From NCBI GenBank assembly GCA_900467185.1, contig UBPA01000002.1:62001-126000 (forward strand): a DNA stretch of 64,000 nt. The letters are read 5' to 3'. Shown here piece by piece: positions 1-9,002 of the stretch. The notes beneath the pieces are model-generated. The model saw nothing but the letters and a program-made list of their open reading frames with translations. It made no database searches and had not been told where the DNA came from. The translations under genes were made by a program, and so were the position numbers. The DNA is from Hyphomicrobiales bacterium (lineage in GTDB: Bacteria; Pseudomonadota; Alphaproteobacteria; Rhizobiales; Rhizobiaceae). The stretch's first letter is position 1; each line of letters begins with the position of its first letter.

Positions 1-3000
1 TGCGCACCTGTCCTTCGGCAAGCCAGTCGAGCGCGCCGCTGTTGACGGAATAGACCCAGGGCAGCAGGCCGAACTGTGCGGAGGTCGGCTGCTTGTACTC
101 CACGGTCCCCAGATAGCCGCCGTCGCGCGGCGTGATCGTCACGCTATGCGTGTCGCCGAGGTTCTTGTCGGTGAACTCGATCGTGCCGTTGGTCTTCAGG
201 ATGGTGCTGTTCTCGCCGATCTTTCCGTCGGCAAGCTCGCTGACGGCGCCGGTCTTGGTGGTGCCGGAGGCCACCACTTCGGGCGCGTCGTTGCGGCCCG
301 CGACCTTCAGTTCCGCGCTTTCGAAATTGATAAATGTCATGCCGCGCCAGGTCAGGTTGCCGCGGGGCGTCCAGGCGTCGTTGCCGAGCGCGACCCAGCC
401 TGCTGCCTTTGCCGCTGCTTCGAAGCTGGCGAGATCGCCCGCGTCGATGCTGAGGGATAGCGCGTCCCTGCCGGCGCCGCCGTCGAACGTGGTCGGCGTC
501 GTATCGACCGTGGAGAGGCCGAGGCTCAGCCGGTCGTCGCCACCGCCCAGGCTGACGCGGCCATCGATGTTCCAGTTCTTGCCGAGCGTCACCGTATCGA
601 CGCCGGTCGTGCTGCCGGTCAGCGCGCCGCGAAGAGTAAAGTTGTCGCCGGCCTTGATGGTGTTGACGTTCTGCGCGCCGTTCAGCGTCATCGCGCCGCC
701 CACGGTCACGCCGGACCCGAAGTCGAAGGTTTTGGTGGAGTAGGCGCCGTCGGCATCGATCCCGCCGCCGATGCTGACGCCGTCGCCGAGCCTGATCTTC
801 ATCGACGCGAAGTTCGCAGCCGTGCCGGCACCATCCATGTCGATGGCAGCGTCCGACTTCGACCGGTCGCCGATCGTCACCGTGTTGACGGTGCCTGCGC
901 CCGAGCCATCGGCCCGGATCAGGCTGAAGGTCGTTTCTTCACCAAGGACAACCGTGTTCTTGATGCCGCCCTTGCCCATGAGGATATCGCCGCCATTGAG
1001 GCGGGCACCCAGGCCGGTGGAGAGATTGGCGGAATGCAGGCTGTTGCCGAAGTCCAGATTGCCGGCCTTCAACTCGAAGAAGTTGCCGGCTTCCAGCCGG
1101 TTCGAGCCGCCGCCGAAGTCGCCGCCGGTCATCAGGCGGACATTGTCGCCGAAGACGACGTTGTCGTCGGCCTTCGTGGTTGCAAGGCGGGAGACCACGG
1201 TGACCTGGCTGTCCGTCGGGAAGCCCGGATCGTCCGAGCCGCGTAGCGTGACCGAGATGGTCTGCACGGTGATGCCGCCATGGCCGTCGTCGATGGCGAC
1301 GTCGTAGGTCTGCACGACCTCCTGGCCCTCCGACAGCTTGTCGAGGGCAGCGTCGTTGACCTTGTAGGTCCACGTGATCGAGCCGGTCTTCACGCCGACG
1401 CCGGTCGTCGGGTTGCCGATCGTCAGCTGGCCGAGATAGTCGGCGCCCTTCGGGGTGATGCGTGCGGTGTGGGCTTCCGCGTCCGCATCGGCAAAGGCGA
1501 TAATGCCGCTCGTGCTCAATTCGGTCTTGTTCTCGCCCGGCGTGCCGTTCTTCAGTTCGGTCACATCTCCGGCCAGCGTCGAGTATTTCGTGAACACTTT
1601 CGGCGCGTCGTTGCCGGCCGTATCGTCCACATCCGGCACGAGCAGGCCGCAAAGGCAGACCGCCTCGCCCGTCGTGGCGCAGGGGCTGCTCGGTGCGGAC
1701 GGATCGAGATCGGCGAAATTGCCGTAATTGGCGATTTTCAGGTCGCGGATAAGCCCGACGAAATGCGCGTCGCCGGAGACGCTGGATTCGCCGATGAGGT
1801 AATGCGCGCGATCGACGTCGGCGGGCACGACGCCCTGGCCTTCTTTGAGGACCTCGGAATTCTTGATGATGCGCATCACGCCGTTCGGATCGACGCCGAC
1901 GCGCCATGTCGCGGTCTCGCCTTCCACGATCGCATTGGTCGCGACGATCCGGTAGGTCTCTCCGCCCTGCTTGATCACGAATTCGATGTCATGGGTCTCG
2001 CCGACCTGACCGAGCCAGATATTCTGCGCATCCGGGCCGTTGCCGAGGTCGAAGATCTTCTGGTTCTTGCCGCCGGCCAGATCGTCGAAGCGTGCGCTGA
2101 CCGCCAGCGCGAAGGCGCCGTCGATCTGCTCGTTATCGATGGCGTAGATGGTCGCGCCACCCCCCTGGAGATTGTCGGTCTGCTTGAGATCGACCATGTC
2201 GACGCCGACCATCTTTGCGACGGACGGCACGCCGTTCTTGTCCACGACGAACATCATCCAGGCGCCGGGAATGGCGATATTGGCCTTGGGGATGGTGATC
2301 TCGACCGTGTTGCCGTCGATGATCTTGTGGTCAAGCTCCACGAACCGCACGTCGGCATTGCGCGCATGGGTATTGGCGCCGGACTTGATGAAAGTGATCT
2401 TGCCGATGTCGGAGGTGTCGTCCACGGTAATGCGGATGACGCTGTCCGTATCGATATTGGTCGGTGCGGACACGATCGAGGGGCGATCGGAAGTCGGATT
2501 GCCGTTCGCGTCGAACAGGTAGGACGGGTTGAGGATCTGGAAGTTCGCGTTCTCTTCCGGCCCCGGCGAGCCGCTGCCGCCGGAATAGATCGTGCCGTCG
2601 GGCAGGAGAAGCGCGCTCGAATGGTACATCCGGGCGAGATCCTGCTTCTCGGAATAGGTGACGGCGCCCGTCGCGGGATCCCAGAAGAGGACGGAGTGTT
2701 GCGCCGTCCCGATATTGTCGGCCAAGAGGCCGGCGCTGGAGGCGCCGCCGACCATGGCGACCTTGCCGTCCGGCATCATGATGAAGGTGCCGTTGGTGCG
2801 GGCGACCAGGCCGCCGCCATTCTCGTTCGCGATCGAGAAGGCGAGCTCCCACTTGATCGTCGGCTGCGACAGATCGGCCTTCCAGACCTGACCCGTGCTA
2901 GAGGCGACGATGACCTTGTCGGTCTCGTACATCATGGAGCCGGTGAGGTTACGGGTGTCGAAGGGCAGCTTGCCGATCTTCTGCACGGAGCCTTCGCCGT

Positions 3001-3694
3001 GCACGTCCATGCGATAGACGTCATGGCCTGCATTGCTGGTGCCGCCGGCCTCGATGATGATCACCGACCCATCCGTGACCTGCCAGGCATGCGGATAGTA
3101 ATAGGTGCCCGTCAGCGTGCCCTCGCCATCCTTCATGTCGCCCATATAGGTGCCGGACAGCTGGCGCATGCCGGTTTCGCTGTTGTAGATCTCGGCGAAG
3201 GTCGAGCCGTTGGAGTTCTCGTCGCGCCCGCCGACCATCAGGATTTCGCCGTTGCTCAGCGTGACCGTGGTTCCGTACCAGCGGGCCTGGTGCAGGGCGA
3301 AGCTCGAATCCTCCTGCGAGATGTTGCGGATCGACTGGGTGGTATAGTCGAACACCACGACATCGTGCCGGCCGGTCCACGTGCCGCCGGCTTCGCCCGT
3401 ATTGTGATTATCGCCACCCATGATGATGACGTTGCCCGTGGTCGGGTCGATCGACATCTGCGAGCAGAAGATGTTGGTGCCGGTGGTGTTGGGCAGGACC
3501 TTGAGCACGCCCGTGACCGGATCGTAGATGGAGTAGACGAACCGCGCGTCGTAATCTCCGGCAACGCCGTCCGTGCCGAAGGCGAGGACCTTGCCGTCGG
3601 GAAGGACGATGGAATGCAGCGGAATGAGAGCGTCCTTGATGATGGCACCCCATTCGCCGTTGCCATTCATGTCCTTGGAGGTCGGGTTGGCCAT
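1..3694 (-). CDS. Galactose/glyoxal-oxidase-like copper-radical oxidase with LamG-like and VCBS domains (partial)
   Basis: The frame is open from an ATG at 3694, with GGAG 8-10 nt upstream, to the left window edge, so at least 1230 residues are present and the C-terminus is missing. Residues about 20-400 form Kelch-type propeller blades, and 400-540 match the early-set domain that follows the propeller in galactose oxidase. Every residue of the copper-radical centre can be placed by motif: Cys77 (NIFCSQMSID) and Tyr140 (ARWYGTTVTL), which would form the thioether cofactor, Tyr357-His358 (RMYHSSALLLPDG) and His443 (GANTHARNADVRF). Residues about 545-690 look like a LamG/concanavalin domain. 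VCBS/cadherin-like repeats begin with NDAP at about 694 and 1135, around a Gly/Asp-rich beta-solenoid-like stretch. There is no N-terminal signal peptide, which with VCBS repeats suggests type I secretion. The inferred activity is oxidation of an alcohol or aldehyde to give H2O2; the substrate is unknown. Confidence 0.85.
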   Translation of the reverse strand, partial: MANPTSKDMNGNGEWGAIIKDALIPLHSIVLPDGKVLAFGTDGVAGDYDARFVYSIYDPVTGVLKVLPNTTGTNIFCSQMSIDPTTGNVIIMGGDNHNTGEAGGTWTGRHDVVVFDYTTQSIRNISQEDSSFALHQARWYGTTVTLSNGEILMVGGRDENSNGSTFAEIYNSETGMRQLSGTYMGDMKDGEGTLTGTYYYPHAWQVTDGSVIIIEAGGTSNAGHDVYRMDVHGEGSVQKIGKLPFDTRNLTGSMMYETDKVIVASSTGQVWKADLSQPTIKWELAFSIANENGGGLVARTNGTFIMMPDGKVAMVGGASSAGLLADNIGTAQHSVLFWDPATGAVTYSEKQDLARMYHSSALLLPDGTIYSGGSGSPGPEENANFQILNPSYLFDANGNPTSDRPSIVSAPTNIDTDSVIRITVDDTSDIGKITFIKSGANTHARNADVRFVELDHKIIDGNTVEITIPKANIAIPGAWMMFVVDKNGVPSVAKMVGVDMVDLKQTDNLQGGGATIYAIDNEQIDGAFALAVSARFDDLAGGKNQKIFDLGNGPDAQNIWLGQVGETHDIEFVIKQGGETYRIVATNAIVEGETATWRVGVDPNGVMRIIKNSEVLKEGQGVVPADVDRAHYLIGESSVSGDAHFVGLIRDLKIANYGNFADLDPSAPSSPCATTGEAVCLCGLLVPDVDDTAGNDAPKVFTKYSTLAGDVTELKNGTPGENKTELSTSGIIAFADADAEAHTARITPKGADYLGQLTIGNPTTGVGVKTGSITWTYKVNDAALDKLSEGQEVVQTYDVAIDDGHGGITVQTISVTLRGSDDPGFPTDSQVTVVSRLATTKADDNVVFGDNVRLMTGGDFGGGSNRLEAGNFFELKAGNLDFGNSLHSANLSTGLGARLNGGDILMGKGGIKNTVVLGEETTFSLIRADGSGAGTVNTVTIGDRSKSDAAIDMDGAGTAANFASMKIRLGDGVSIGGGIDADGAYSTKTFDFGSGVTVGGAMTLNGAQNVNTIKAGDNFTLRGALTGSTTGVDTVTLGKNWNIDGRVSLGGGDDRLSLGLSTVDTTPTTFDGGAGRDALSLSIDAGDLASFEAAAKAAGWVALGNDAWTPRGNLTWRGMTFINFESAELKVAGRNDAPEVVASGTTKTGAVSELADGKIGENSTILKTNGTIEFTDKNLGDTHSVTITPRDGGYLGTVEYKQPTSAQFGLLPWVYSVNSGALDWLAEGQVR

Positions 3695-3786: not shown

Positions 3787-4077
3787 TCAGCGCGCCGCGT
3801 GCAGCAGAAGGGCAGCGGCCGGACGCTGCCGTGCGGCGACGATGGCAGACGCCATGAGGCCGAGGCCGAGAGCGGCGGCCGGGCAGCCCCAGCAATGGAC
3901 GGCGTCGGCCAGCATCGAGCCCGAAGCATCGGCCGAACCGCCGCAGATTGCGCCGATGAAGGCCTCTGTCGTCGGCAGGTGGGCGGCGATCCTTGCAACA
4001 CCTGCCGTCGCCAGCATGACGCCGAGACCGGCAACGCCCATAATGAAGGCCGCCTGTTTTTCGGAATGATGGATCAT
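3787..4077 (-). CDS. Small membrane protein with CxxC motif, unknown function
   Basis: This 96-residue frame starts at ATG 4077, preceded by GAGGG at 5-nt spacing. It has two hydrophobic segments (about residues 10-32 and 66-84) separated by a loop with one Cys (AICGGS) and a HCWGC motif. I do not recognise the family. It lies 92 bp upstream of the copper-radical oxidase on the same strand and could share its promoter. His and CxxC residues in a small membrane protein next to a copper enzyme could point to metal handling, but that is only inference. The good ribosome site and clean membrane pattern support it being real. Confidence 0.55.
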   Translation of the reverse strand: MIHHSEKQAAFIMGVAGLGVMLATAGVARIAAHLPTTEAFIGAICGGSADASGSMLADAVHCWGCPAAALGLGLMASAIVAARQRPAAALLLHAAR

Positions 4078-4363
4078 ATTACCCTCGTCAGTATAACGCG
4101 CTTAATATCGAAAAACAGTATTGCCTAAACTCCTTAAATAAGAAGCAAAATGCAAGATCGCTAATATTCGACCGATTTAAACGGTTAATTTTAACGCTGA
4201 TCGCAGGAATTTCTCATCCGTATCAAGCGCAGTCTCGCGATGTGCATCATCGCCCTCAGGGCCGGGAGATCGTGGACGTGTGTCCGGAAGGCGCTTGATT
4301 TGATCCGTGATGTTTGATCAAACTTGGTCCGTCGAGCAGATCCGGCGGCAATGGGAGAGGGCG
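4078..4363. other. AT-rich divergent intergenic region
   Basis: This stretch separates the minus-strand membrane protein/oxidase unit from the plus-strand GntR operon. About 4085-4200 is clearly AT-rich compared with the surrounding coding DNA, which suits two divergent promoters. A 12-bp palindrome lies near the right end. No gene is supported here. Confidence 0.5.
4312..4323. promoter_or_regulatory. Palindrome GTTTGATCAAAC, candidate GntR operator
   Basis: This perfect 12-bp palindrome lies about 40 bp upstream of the preferred GntR start at 4364. A related half site (TTGATTTGATC) lies just upstream at about 4295-4305. The position suits autoregulation of the FCD-type regulator. It would fall inside the coding sequence if translation began at the upstream GTG 4307 or ATG 4310, another reason to prefer 4364. 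Confidence 0.45.
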
Positions 4364-5122
4364 ATGACAAAAGGCACGGGAGGCGGTTTGCGAAACGACC
4401 TCGCGACCGGTGGCGCCGAGACGTCGACCCTTTCGCCGGTCGGGCGCGAGACGGTGCAGGATCGCGTCTATGCCCAGCTGCGGAATTCGCTCATCAACGG
4501 CATGTTCGATGCCGGCGACGTGCTGCGCATCGTCGATCTGGCCGAGCGCCTGCAGACCAGCACCATGCCGGTGCGCGAGGCGCTGGGGCGTCTCGTGTCG
4601 GAAAAGGCGCTGGAGTCGCTGCCGAACCGCTCCGTCCGCGTGCCGCTCATCACCCGCGCCCGGCTCGACGATCTCGCTCGCGCCCGGATTCTCATCGAAG
4701 GGCGGATGGTCTCGCTCGCGTTGCCGCACCTGACGCGCGAGGATATCGCCATCCTGACGCAGGCCAATGCGGCGTGCGATGCCGCCTTCGAAACGCATGG
4801 CAAGGACATCGGCCATGTCACCTCCGCGCTGAACCAGCGCTTCCATTTTCATCTCTACAGCGTTGCCCGCTCGCCCGTTCTGCTGTCGATCGTGGAAAGC
4901 CTCTGGCTGCAATCCGGCGCCATCATCCGACAGGCGGCGCAGATTCACGACGCACAGGGCGGTCTGGCGGCGACCGATCATCACTGGGCGCTGATCGCCG
5001 CGCTCAAGGCAGGCGACGAGGACGCGGCGCTTCGGGCGCTGACCAATGACATCAGCCGATCATTCGATCTCATCCGGGGACGGCTTGACGCACAGGACGG
5101 ACGTGAGGTGCGCTATGGTTGA
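4364..5122 (+). CDS. GntR family (FCD subfamily) transcriptional regulator
   Basis: This 252-residue protein has an N-terminal winged helix (about residues 30-100, including the STMPVREALGRL recognition helix) and an all-helical FCD effector domain. The FCD domain keeps His-rich metal/ligand segments (NQRFHFHLY, TDHHWALIAAL). I chose ATG 4364 because GGGAGAGG precedes it; GTG 4307 would add 19 residues but lacks a ribosome site and covers the palindrome. Its stop overlaps the start of the TIGR04076 gene by 8 nt. It is the likely regulator of the downstream aldo/keto reductase and binding-protein genes, responding to an unknown acid or sugar-acid effector. Confidence 0.85.
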   Translation: MTKGTGGGLRNDLATGGAETSTLSPVGRETVQDRVYAQLRNSLINGMFDAGDVLRIVDLAERLQTSTMPVREALGRLVSEKALESLPNRSVRVPLITRARLDDLARARILIEGRMVSLALPHLTREDIAILTQANAACDAAFETHGKDIGHVTSALNQRFHFHLYSVARSPVLLSIVESLWLQSGAIIRQAAQIHDAQGGLAATDHHWALIAALKAGDEDAALRALTNDISRSFDLIRGRLDAQDGREVRYG

Positions 5123-5474
5123 GGCTGGCGATGACGGCTTCGAGCTGTTCGATCTGCAGGTGGACGTGATCATTCCTGAGGGTGGCGCGGTCTATTGCGG
5201 CGCGAAGCCGGGCGACCATTTCGAGCTGCGCGGCGAAATGCTGCATCTGCCCGACGGGCAGGGCCTGTCGATCTATTCGCTCGCCTCCGTGCTGCCGCTG
5301 CTGGCCGCCAAGCAGCGCCCCACACACCGCAACGACTGGATGACGACGGATGCGGAGATCGCGTGTCCCGACCCGAACTGCTCGACGCGGCTGCGCATCA
5401 CGCGGCTCCGCCACCGGCATTTCAGCCACGCGGCGACCACCGCAGTACCCTTGAACGACGAAACACAGGCCTGA
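5115..5474 (+). CDS. TIGR04076 family protein
   Basis: This 119-residue protein shows the TIGR04076 pattern: a beta-rich N-terminus with a Cys-Gly-x-Lys-x-Gly-Asp turn (YCGAKPGDHF), a central SLASVLPLL helix, and a C-terminal CPDP motif. The family has no established biochemical function but is often found with oxidoreductases, including aldo/keto reductases. The start ATG 5115 overlaps the end of the GntR gene and has GAGGTG upstream, so translation is probably coupled. The aldo/keto reductase follows after 4 bp. An upstream in-frame ATG (5046) lies inside the regulator gene and is less likely. Confidence 0.75.
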   Translation: MVEAGDDGFELFDLQVDVIIPEGGAVYCGAKPGDHFELRGEMLHLPDGQGLSIYSLASVLPLLAAKQRPTHRNDWMTTDAEIACPDPNCSTRLRITRLRHRHFSHAATTAVPLNDETQA

Positions 5475-5478
5475 CGAC

Positions 5479-6525
5479 ATGCAACGCATCGCCATTGCTC
5501 CCGGTTACGAGATTTCCCGCGTGATCCGCGGCGGCTGGCAACTTGCCGGGGGCCACGGCGCCGTCGATGCGGACACGGCGGTGGAGGACATGATCGCCTT
5601 CGCGGATGCCGGCATCACCACTTTCGACTGCGCCGACATCTATACGGGTGTCGAAGACCTGATCGGCCGCTTCCGGCTTGCCTATGGCAACCTGCGCGGG
5701 GCAGAGGCGCTGTCCCGCATCCGGGTCCACACGAAGTTCGTGCCCGATCTTGCCGTCCTGCCGACCATCGACAAGGCCTATGTCGAGGGCGTGATCGACA
5801 CATCGCGCCAGCGGCTGAAGCTTGAGACGCTCGATCTCGTCCAGTTTCACTGGTGGGCGCTCGACGTGCCCGGCTGGCTGGAGACGGCCGGATGGTTGAA
5901 GGACCTGTCCGACGAGGGCAAGATCGGGAAGGTAAGCCTCACCAACTTCGACACCGACCACGTGGCGGCCATCATCGATGCCGGCGTTCCCGTTGCCTCC
6001 CTCCAGCTGCAATATTCGCTGCTCGACCGGCGGCCGGAAAAGCGCATGGTCGATCTCGCACATGCCAAAGGGTTCGCCCTGTTCTGCTACGGAACCGTTG
6101 CCGGTGGCTTCCTCAGCGATCGCTGGCTGGGGCAGGCGGAACCGGAGCACCCGCTCGAAAACCGGTCGCTGACCAAGTACAAACTGATCATCGACGATAT
6201 CGGCGGATGGGATGTGTTCCAGTCGCTGCTGGGCACATTGCGGCGCATTGCCAACCGCCACGGCACCGACATCGCGACGGTCGCGAGCGCCGCCATGCTG
6301 ACGAAGCCTGCCGTTGCCGCCGTCATCGTCGGCGCGCGCAACCGCGCCCACCTGCCGGCCAATCTCGCCATTTTCGATATCGCACTCGATGACGCAGATC
6401 ATGCGGCGCTGGCAGCGGTCCTTGCCGACGCCCGGCCGCTGGACGGCGATGTCTATGCGCTGGAGCGCGACCGCACGGGCCGCCACGGCGCCATCATGAA
6501 ATACAATCTCAACAAAGGGGAATAA
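5479..6525 (+). CDS. Aldo/keto reductase
   Basis: This 348-residue TIM-barrel NAD(P)H-dependent oxidoreductase has the catalytic tetrad by motif: Asp50 (TTFDCADIY), Tyr55, Lys86 (VHTKF) and His124 (QFHWWA). Length and motifs fit the aldo/keto reductase superfamily. It acts in the cytoplasm on an aldehyde, ketone or sugar not identifiable from sequence. It sits 4 bp after the TIGR04076 gene and 2 bp before a LivK-type binding protein, so all four plus-strand genes from 4364 form one operon, probably for uptake or sensing and reduction/oxidation of one compound. Confidence 0.88.
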   Translation: MQRIAIAPGYEISRVIRGGWQLAGGHGAVDADTAVEDMIAFADAGITTFDCADIYTGVEDLIGRFRLAYGNLRGAEALSRIRVHTKFVPDLAVLPTIDKAYVEGVIDTSRQRLKLETLDLVQFHWWALDVPGWLETAGWLKDLSDEGKIGKVSLTNFDTDHVAAIIDAGVPVASLQLQYSLLDRRPEKRMVDLAHAKGFALFCYGTVAGGFLSDRWLGQAEPEHPLENRSLTKYKLIIDDIGGWDVFQSLLGTLRRIANRHGTDIATVASAAMLTKPAVAAVIVGARNRAHLPANLAIFDIALDDADHAALAAVLADARPLDGDVYALERDRTGRHGAIMKYNLNKGE

Positions 6526-6527
6526 GA

Positions 6528-7787
6528 ATGAGACCGTCACATCTGCTCGCAGCGCTTTTCACCACGCTGGCCGCCTCCACGTCACCGGCTCTTTCGGCCG
6601 ATTGCGACATCACCGTCGGCCTTGTGATGGAACTGACGGGGCCTGCCGGCGAGTACGGCCAGGCGGGGGCGAAATCCGTCGAGATGGCCTTCCGCGACAT
6701 CAACGACGCCGGAGGCGTCGGCGGCTGCAAGGTCGTGGCCGATACGCGCGACAGCCAGAGCCAGGGCAACGTCGCCGTCGATCAGGCGACGCAGCTCGTC
6801 AACATCAAGAAGGTGCCGGTCATCATCGGCGGCATCATTTCCTCCGTGTCCATCCCGATCCTGACCTCGGTCACGGCGCCAGCTGGTGTCGTGCAGGTCT
6901 CGCCGGCCTCCTCGTCGCCGACGCTGACCGCGCTCGGCCGTGACGGCAAGACGAACGGCGTGTTCTTCCGCACCATCACCTCGGATGCGCTGCAGGGAAC
7001 GGCGGCGGCGAAATACGCGATCGACCAGGGCCTGAAGAAGATCGCCATCATCAACGTCAACAACGATTTCGGCGTCAACATGGTGCGCGAGTTCAAGACG
7101 GCGTACGAAAAGCTCGGTGGCACGATCACCACCACGACGCCCTATAACGAGAAGCAATCGAGCTATGCGTCGGAGGCAAGTGCTGCCATGGCCGGCGAGC
7201 CGGATGCGCTTTACCTCGTCAGCACGCCGGTGGACGGTGCGACGATCGCACGCGCCTGGATTTCCGGCGGCGGCAAGCAGACGTTCCTCCTGAACGACGG
7301 GATGAACTCCAAGGACTTCATCGAGAGCGTTGGCGCGCAATATCTCGAAAATGCCTACGGCACGTCGTCCGGCACGAGCCCGACCGCCTCGACCGAATAT
7401 TTCAACGCCAATTACGAGGCCTTCTCCGGCGGCATCGCGCCGTCGGCGCCGGCGGCTGACCGTTCCTACGATGCCGGCGCCATCGTCGGGCTTGCCATCG
7501 CCAAGGCCGGCAAGTCCGATGCAGCGGCCATCAAGACCGCGATGCGCGAGGTCGTGGCCGAAGGCGGCACGCCGATCCACGCCGGCAAGCAAGAGTTCGT
7601 CAAGGCTCTGGCGCTGATCAAGGAGGGCAAACCGGTGAAGTACGAGGGCGTCATCGGCCCGGTGAGCTTCGACCAGTATGGCGATATCACCGGTCCCTTC
7701 CGCTTGTGGAAGATCACGAACGGTGAGGTGACGACCGTCGGCGAACTGAGCTCCGAGGAGGTCGGCAAGCTGAAGGACGGCAAGTAG
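6528..7787 (+). CDS. LivK-type ABC transporter substrate-binding protein (orphan)
   Basis: This 419-residue periplasmic protein has an N-terminal signal peptide (about 24 residues, cleavage near PALSA). The mature part starts with CDITVGLVMELTGPAGEYG, typical of the branched-chain amino-acid/amide binding family (Peripla_BP_6). An AAGG-type ribosome site lies in the end of the reductase gene. No permease or ATPase follows: the next gene is convergent. The protein must therefore use components encoded elsewhere or serve as a sensor. The ligand is unknown. The gene ends in a strong hairpin at 7797-7822. Confidence 0.88.
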   Translation: MRPSHLLAALFTTLAASTSPALSADCDITVGLVMELTGPAGEYGQAGAKSVEMAFRDINDAGGVGGCKVVADTRDSQSQGNVAVDQATQLVNIKKVPVIIGGIISSVSIPILTSVTAPAGVVQVSPASSSPTLTALGRDGKTNGVFFRTITSDALQGTAAAKYAIDQGLKKIAIINVNNDFGVNMVREFKTAYEKLGGTITTTTPYNEKQSSYASEASAAMAGEPDALYLVSTPVDGATIARAWISGGGKQTFLLNDGMNSKDFIESVGAQYLENAYGTSSGTSPTASTEYFNANYEAFSGGIAPSAPAADRSYDAGAIVGLAIAKAGKSDAAAIKTAMREVVAEGGTPIHAGKQEFVKALALIKEGKPVKYEGVIGPVSFDQYGDITGPFRLWKITNGEVTTVGELSSEEVGKLKDGK

Positions 7788-7796
7788 GCTGTCTTC

Positions 7797-7822
7797 GGCC
7801 GGCGGGGAATTCCCTGCCGGCC
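7797..7822. terminator. GC-rich hairpin between convergent genes
   Basis: An almost perfect 26-nt inverted repeat (GGCCGGCGGGGAA / TTCCCTGCCGGCC, one G-T pair) fills the 42-bp gap between the convergent binding-protein and lactonase genes. There is no long T-run, so it may work as a bidirectional terminator or as a 3' stabiliser. Confidence 0.65.
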
Positions 7823-7829
7823 TCTCCAA

Positions 7830-8918
7830 TCACGCGAAGCGGATGCACATCGGCGAGCCCACGGCGATCGTCTTTCCGCTCGGTCTCAGGCTGCCGGTAT
7901 CGGCATCGCGTCTAAAGATGGTGATGACGTCGGCGTTCTGGTTGGCGCAAAAAAGGTGCCGGCCTGACGGCGAGATCGCAAGGTTTCGCGGGGTCGCGCC
8001 GCCACAGGGCGTCTGCGCGACATGTGTCAGTTGGCCGGTGGCGTCGTTGACGGCAAAGGTGACGATGCTGTCGTGCCCACGGTTCGAGCCGTAGACGAAA
8101 CGTCCGTCCGGCGAGATCTGGATATCAGCGCAGTGATTGTCTGCGCGGGCCGTCTCGGGTACGGCGGGCTTCGCATCGACGGGCGTCAGCCGGCCGTCGG
8201 TGCCGACGGCGTAGCTTGCAACGGTCGAGTCGAGCTCGTTCATCACGAAGATCCAGCCTCCGCCGGGATGAAGTGCGACATGCCGGGGACCGGCCCCGGG
8301 CGCGGTTGGGCAGACATGGCGGCGTGACAGGCCGCCCTCTTCGTCGACGGCATAGGTGGTCAACGTGTCGGTTCCGAGATCCGCGACCAGCAGCAGGTTT
8401 GGACCGATACGTGTGACGCTATGGGCGTGGCTGCGCTCCTGCCGGTCGGCATCCGGCCCGGTTCCCGCCTGCTGCACGCTGGAGATCGGCGGCGTCAGGC
8501 TTCCGTCCTCCCGAATGCCATAGACCACGAGCGATTGATCCGGGCCGCCGGCACCCATGCCGTAATTGACGACTAACAGCCATCTGCCGTCGTCCGAAAG
8601 CGTGTTGTGCGCCGTGATGCTGCCGAGGGTCGGCTGCATGCCGATCGGCGCTAGGGTTCCCCTTGCCCGGTCGAAGGATAGGGCCGAGACCAGACCTTCC
8701 GACCAGCCGAAGATCTCGGAATTGGCATAGACCCGGCGCTCGTCCGGCGTCACCGAGAGGAAGGTCGGGTTGTCGATGCCGGTAAAGCTGGCAAGCGTTT
8801 CCACCACCAGTGTATCCTCGTCGAAGCTGTAGACCGTCAGGCCTGTGCCGCGCGCGCCTTGAAAATACGGCGCCTCGCGATTGAGCGATCCGACAAACAT
8901 CAGGCAGGGCTCCGCCAT
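7830..8918 (-). CDS. Lactonase family protein (YbhE/6-phosphogluconolactonase-like beta-propeller)
   Basis: This 362-residue seven-bladed beta-propeller matches the lactonase family PF10282: repeated blades such as DNPTFLSVTPD, GPRHVALHPGG and NHCADIQISPDGRFVY, with the typical C-terminal blade ATPRNLAISPSGRHLF. Members hydrolyse sugar lactones such as 6-phosphogluconolactone or act on related cyclic esters. I chose ATG 8918 (MAEPC) because GGAGG lies 7 nt upstream; a start at 8939 would place this ribosome site inside the gene. It is divergent from the MaoC/CoA-transferase operon and shares its promoter region. The substrate is probably an aldonolactone but is not shown by sequence. Confidence 0.85.
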   Translation of the reverse strand: MAEPCLMFVGSLNREAPYFQGARGTGLTVYSFDEDTLVVETLASFTGIDNPTFLSVTPDERRVYANSEIFGWSEGLVSALSFDRARGTLAPIGMQPTLGSITAHNTLSDDGRWLLVVNYGMGAGGPDQSLVVYGIREDGSLTPPISSVQQAGTGPDADRQERSHAHSVTRIGPNLLLVADLGTDTLTTYAVDEEGGLSRRHVCPTAPGAGPRHVALHPGGGWIFVMNELDSTVASYAVGTDGRLTPVDAKPAVPETARADNHCADIQISPDGRFVYGSNRGHDSIVTFAVNDATGQLTHVAQTPCGGATPRNLAISPSGRHLFCANQNADVITIFRRDADTGSLRPSGKTIAVGSPMCIRFA

Positions 8919-9002
8919 GTCTCTTCCTCCCATTTCCACCGTCTTCCAGCAGTTCCTTTTCCCAAGGCGAGAATGATCGATGCCTCTTGCAAAAGCAATC
9001 CA

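Follow-up and report, generated by a model that had tools for sequence, protein, structure and literature searches.

A predicted type I-secreted copper-radical oxidase with a VCBS and RTX tail in a plant-associated member of the Rhizobiaceae

Organization of the oxidase locus

The window analyzed here, a stretch of 64,000 nucleotides, is contig C17:62001-126000 of the 5.04-Mb genome of a plant-associated bacterium (G000); contig positions are window positions plus 62000. By its oxidase locus, the nearest named relative is Ferranicluibacter rubi CRRU44, whose oxidase domain is 98% identical, and Ferranicluibacter is a genus within the Rhizobiaceae. The features are listed below.

Window 2..3694, minus strand: oxidase gene, N-terminal 1231 codons, with an ATG start and a frame open to the left window edge.
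Window 2195..3694, minus strand: copper-radical oxidase (CRO) domain, residues 1-500, kelch propeller and E-set, with ligands C77, Y140, Y357, H358, and H443 and second-shell W139.
Window 1625..2188, minus strand: LamG-like segment, approximately residues 503-690, a subthreshold Pfam match common to relatives.
Window 1190..1612, minus strand: first VCBS unit, approximately residues 695-835, with a VCBS match and an NDAP start.
Window 290..1189, minus strand: first of three 300-residue beta-solenoid copies, residues 836-1135.
Window 2..292, minus strand: second VCBS unit, start only, residues 1135-1231, with an NDAP start, truncated by the window edge.
Window 3787..4077, minus strand: gene lying 92 bases upstream of the oxidase and encoding a 96-amino-acid candidate partner in copper or thiol handling, whose sequence has two hydrophobic stretches and a loop of the form C-G...HCWGCP.
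C17:53782-55512, strand opposite to the oxidase: PrtD-type ABC transporter, passing TIGR01842.
C17:55503-57017, strand opposite to the oxidase: HlyD adaptor, passing TIGR01843.
C17:56939-58570, strand opposite to the oxidase: TolC-type channel, passing Pfam OEP and below the NCBIfam cut-off.

Inspection of the reading frame revealed an in-frame stop one codon ahead of the oxidase ATG. The initial annotation had pointed to the sequence left of the window for the C-terminus and neighboring type I secretion system (T1SS) genes, and both were located there. The gene extends past the window edge to C17:58586, adding approximately 1,140 residues and the RTX-bearing C-terminus, and the T1SS trio (C17:53782-58570) lies directly behind its end. 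A single frame of 2,369 amino acids is present in two congeners, G001 (F. rubi) and G005, the congeners with a full gene besides G000. The intact protein runs from an N-terminal CRO domain through the LamG-like segment, VCBS and beta-solenoid modules, and RTX repeats to a conserved C-terminus.

Window 4307-8939, past the small upstream gene, is probably a catabolic locus in its own right, with genes for a GntR/FCD regulator, a 142-amino-acid protein to which no Pfam family matched, an aldo/keto reductase, a periplasmic binding protein, and a propeller of the lactonase type. The regulator and the aldo/keto reductase are also close to the oxidase in G001.

Fold and copper ligands of the catalytic domain

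The E-set model GO-like_E_set (PF09118) was above its Pfam cut-off at residues 404-498 (E 4.4e-19), and kelch models, Kelch_4 among them, span parts of the propeller. Phmmer searches against solved proteins aligned approximately residues 9-498 with 9g8h, 1gof, and 5c86 at E values of 1e-30 to 1e-34, and all solved relatives found were CROs. The oxidase domain modeled by AlphaFold2 on a 35-sequence alignment reached a pLDDT of 87.3 and a pTM of 0.91, and in comparison with the PDB its first 27 matches were all CROs (TM approximately 0.81); after these the similarity fell abruptly, and the further matches were other folds and generic propellers. The domain resembles the AA5 enzymes galactose oxidase (1GOF/9G8H) and alcohol oxidase (5C86) in the kelch and E-set fold and the five first-shell ligands. 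It differs from them in its approximately 25% identity, the missing signal peptide, the lack of an aromatic counterpart to Trp290, the giant RTX-ended tail, and the adjacent T1SS. The Glyoxal_oxid_N model scored below its cut-off (30.2 versus 37.5 bits), and the best solved matches belong to AA5_2.

The five residues previously read by motif as a complete oxidase site (C77, Y140, Y357, H358, and H443) correspond in alignment to the copper ligands of solved CROs; they were invariant in 12 of 12 and then in 35 of 35 aligned sequences. Their convergence on one site is supported by the predicted fold and the alignment rather than by distances. The remainder of the protein is adhesin-like (VCBS, LamG-like, and solenoid repeats), as would suit a catalytically dead kelch propeller whose sole role in a secreted RTX adhesin is binding. 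This reading is very improbable given that none of the 35 sequences has lost any of the five ligands or the second-shell Trp/Tyr and that the oxidase domain evolves at a dN/dS of 0.04-0.05.

Second shell and predicted substrate

In galactose oxidase, the aromatic residue W290 stacks on the cofactor. In the window's oxidase, Asp158 aligns with this position, so that the aromatic residue expected of AA5_2 is missing, and no aromatic residue was present there in any of the 35 aligned sequences. The same alignment places Trp139 immediately N-terminal to Tyr140, with Tyr replacing Trp in a few homologs. The arrangement expected of AA5_1, a second-shell Trp directly preceding the cross-linked Tyr, is thereby present as W139-Y140. 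It is shared with the fungal AA5_1 aldehyde oxidase FgrAldOx (PDB 9n3u), whose 2026 structure shows the cross-linked Tyr immediately following the second-shell Trp and nothing that corresponds to the W290 position (PMC13094651). FgrAldOx differs in being fungal, Sec-secreted, and equipped with WSC domains, and its sequence match to the window's oxidase is weak (E 5e-14).

Because of the W139-Y140 pair and the lack of a Trp290 equivalent, the AA5_1-like second shell favors aldehydes over galactose as the predicted substrate. The enzyme could instead act on glycans as a galactose-6-oxidase or as a general alcohol oxidase, an alternative that is less likely but of some weight: galactose and alcohol oxidases are its nearest solved sequences, and the tail could bind glycans. 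Against it stand the position of Trp290 devoid of an aromatic residue and the Trp-before-Tyr layout of the fungal AA5_1 aldehyde oxidase.

Among bacterial enzymes, GlxA of Streptomyces (4UNM; PMC3543389) is likewise an extracellular CRO, but its gene encodes a signal peptide and is grouped with cslA rather than with a T1SS. The window's oxidase fell far below the GlxA equivalog cut-off (NCBIfam NF052501, 117.8 versus 800 bits).

Modules of the tail

The VCBS repeats placed at 694 and 1135 in the initial annotation agree with the NDAP unit starts found at 695 and 1135, and a VCBS repeat was above its cut-off at residues 729-825 (27 versus 15.5 bits). The intact protein contains five VCBS-type units, starting at 695, 1135, 1259, 1386, and 1504. 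The LamG-like domain held up in part: the match by itself is weak (19.1 bits, cut-off 27.6), and the segment recurs in relatives. It follows the oxidase in the window's protein and precedes it in loci L032-L035 and L049.

The 300-residue domain occurs in three copies in the intact protein (approximately 836-1135, 1636-1935, and 1946-2245) and matched no Pfam family at its cut-off. A confident model (pLDDT 93.4) shows it as an all-beta solenoid that contains a single helix. Comparison of the model with solved structures gave no significant match, the best being 3p4g, a calcium-dependent beta-helical antifreeze protein (E 0.04). Near the C-terminus, RTX repeats (PF00353) were above the cut-off of 23 in G000 (23.3) and in G001 (25.4).

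Type I secretion system beside the oxidase

The catalytic domain starts at approximately residue 8 and no Sec-like hydrophobic N-terminus precedes it, in agreement with the earlier reading that a signal peptide is missing. The secretion partner, left open in the initial annotation, can now be identified as the adjacent PrtD/HlyD/TolC system. A near-identical ABC transporter is confined to G000, G001, and G005, the three in which the oxidase gene is complete, and across seven congeners the two genes were both present in three and both absent in four (Fisher P = 0.029, uncorrected for relatedness). Genes for ABC, HlyD, and TolC also adjoin the oxidase in Methylobacterium dankookense, M. hispanicum, Rhizobium sp. 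L1K21, and F. endophytica, and T1SS genes are partly present in a Hyphomicrobium metagenome-assembled genome (MAG) and in MAG BEIJ3. In several members of the clade, no T1SS was found inside the fetched flanks. Adjacency by itself is not proof of export by this route, because at locus L041, outside the clade, Sec-type oxidases have a distant ABC/HlyD pair nearby.

Congener G003 retains an oxidase remnant of 95 codons, approximately 80 of them matched (L016:6951-7238), together with the upstream small gene but with no transporter beside it; oxidase and transporter have been deleted together. Another congener, G006, carries an 848-amino-acid Sec-type CRO, 33% identical, in place of the T1SS type (L015:8544-11090).

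With T1SS-exported RTX/VCBS proteins, the oxidase shares the C-terminal RTX repeats, the lack of an N-terminal signal, the ABC/HlyD/TolC genes nearby, and the VCBS units; it differs from them in that the cargo is a CRO. The sequence features strongly support a very large type I-secreted CRO, and a secreted AA5-type enzyme using a dedicated T1SS in place of the Sec route is the likely interpretation of sequence and model together. The initial annotation had proposed a very large surface or type I-secreted enzyme. The secreted part of that proposal stands on the RTX tail, the missing Sec signal, and the adjacent co-inherited T1SS; an anchored surface adhesin is the less likely form. The VCBS units, solenoid copies, and RTX end do resemble giant T1SS adhesins, and the protein could be a LapA-type surface-retained adhesin that incidentally carries an oxidase. 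Retention of the LapA type depends on an N-terminal retention module, for which an oxidase beginning at approximately residue 8 leaves no space. This makes the LapA-type alternative improbable, and release or noncovalent retention likelier than an anchored adhesin.

To our knowledge, the bacterial CROs described so far use signal peptides, and our literature search found no paper linking galactose or glyoxal oxidase to type I secretion, VCBS, or RTX. Work on CROs has addressed their role as sources of H2O2 in fungi, plant infection, and Streptomyces development and their use as industrial catalysts. If the T1SS-exported clade is real, a radical cuproenzyme would have to complete every step of cofactor formation extracellularly.

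Gene integrity and selection

The assembly containing the window has one frame change left of the window, at approximately C17:61,555-61,600, before the RTX end. Between G001 and G005, dN/dS was 0.096 for the whole gene, a sign of strong purifying selection, and 0.052 for the oxidase domain, and for the window's copy it was 0.037-0.049 in the oxidase domain and 0.13-0.16 downstream of the frame change. Few parts of the gene are as constrained as the oxidase domain. Because both sides are still constrained, the interruption is either recent or an assembly error.

The orthologue in M. hispanicum has an in-frame stop at L029:15830-15832, ahead of the last solenoid copy and the RTX end. Its last two solenoid copies are nearly identical, which suggests a recent duplication or gene conversion. 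Considering the interruption in G000 and the stop in M. hispanicum, some gene copies may be dead. That the window's copy is decaying and without function in this strain would fit its frame interruption, the M. hispanicum stop, and the G003 remnant. Such decay is nevertheless rather unlikely, as both halves are constrained (dN/dS approximately 0.05 before and 0.13-0.16 after the frame change), the congeners are intact, and a draft-assembly error is equally possible.

Upstream 96-amino-acid membrane protein

The 96-amino-acid protein had no Pfam match and nothing above an NCBIfam cut-off. A relative of it is likewise encoded ahead of the oxidase in M. hispanicum, M. dankookense, F. endophytica, and a Rhizobiaceae MAG. 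Among 298 genomes of the family, chosen irrespective of the oxidase, four gave strong matches (G000, G001, G003, and G129), all adjoining the oxidase or its remnant, and among 387 genomes of the order the own genome alone scored. A class-level match led to 28 genomes of another alphaproteobacterial order that carry relatives of the protein. In each of the 20 contexts inspected (L122:9012-9275 and L124-L143; G482 and its relatives), the relative lies next to ccoN of a cbb3 oxidase, and in 19 of them a FixL-like kinase flanks it on the opposite side. The literature on ccoN/fixL and on Methylobacterium was searched and nothing relevant was found.

Occurrence beside two unrelated copper oxidases suggests copper handling, and the protein probably handles copper or thiols for the secreted oxidase. 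More tentatively, and with the odds against it, the HCxGC two-helix protein could be a copper-supply or maturation factor common to the secreted CROs of Rhizobiales and the cbb3 heme-copper oxidases of the other order. In that case, T1SS-exported cuproenzymes would have a dedicated partner helping an enzyme exported unfolded to acquire copper outside the cell.

Proposed route and reaction

In the proposed mechanism, the chain would exit the cytoplasm unfolded via the T1SS, and its RTX part would be folded outside by calcium. The propeller would then bind copper and, with O2, form the Cys77-Tyr140 thioether cofactor by itself; such self-processing is known for galactose oxidase. The upstream HCWGCP membrane protein probably serves copper or thiol handling in the course of these events. 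The lectin-like and VCBS tail may hold the enzyme close to glycans, either of the cell matrix or of the plant surface, where an aldehyde (or primary alcohol) would be oxidized and H2O2 released. We infer both the enzymatic activity and the substrate from sequence; the second-shell Trp gives a specific substrate prediction, and the 96-amino-acid neighbor is a candidate partner without a Pfam or NCBIfam name.

A secreted heme peroxidase as the general partner using H2O2, on the model of the oxidase-peroxidase pairs of fungi, was rejected: PF03098 was found in 1 of 10 genomes (F. endophytica) and not in G000. In F. endophytica, a 2,711-codon open frame has matches to animal-type heme peroxidases (G129:C27:126352-128514; L107-L109) and is a possible H2O2 user in that species.

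Clade and distribution

In a tree of 35 oxidase domains, the window's oxidase falls in a group of 17 (support 100/100), almost all from Alphaproteobacteria. None of the group has a Sec-type N-terminus except Marinomonas (L064), whereas in the rest of the tree a signal peptide or lipobox is nearly always present. Tails within the group carry RTX, LamG, C-type lectin, legume lectin, PA14, and DUF642 modules. The initial annotation had named fungi and single-domain bacterial forms as the best-known sources of CROs. Accessory binding domains (ricin, discoidin, and lectins) are, however, common in bacterial CROs, so that the novelty is the export route and the clade, not the multidomain build as such.

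The oxidase domain was matched in 12 of 298 genomes of the family, the G003 remnant included, and the trait is therefore patchy. From this patchiness, horizontal transfer between Ferranicluibacter and Methylobacterium is plausible; identity between the two is 77-80% for the oxidase and approximately 80% for the ABC transporter. Carriage by plasmids was considered and rejected, as no close plasmid copy of the oxidase (best approximately 28% identity) and no plasmid copy of the small protein was found. In Fulvimarina manganoxydans, two RTX-ended CROs of 1898 and 1151 codons lie in tandem (L030:9950-19321).
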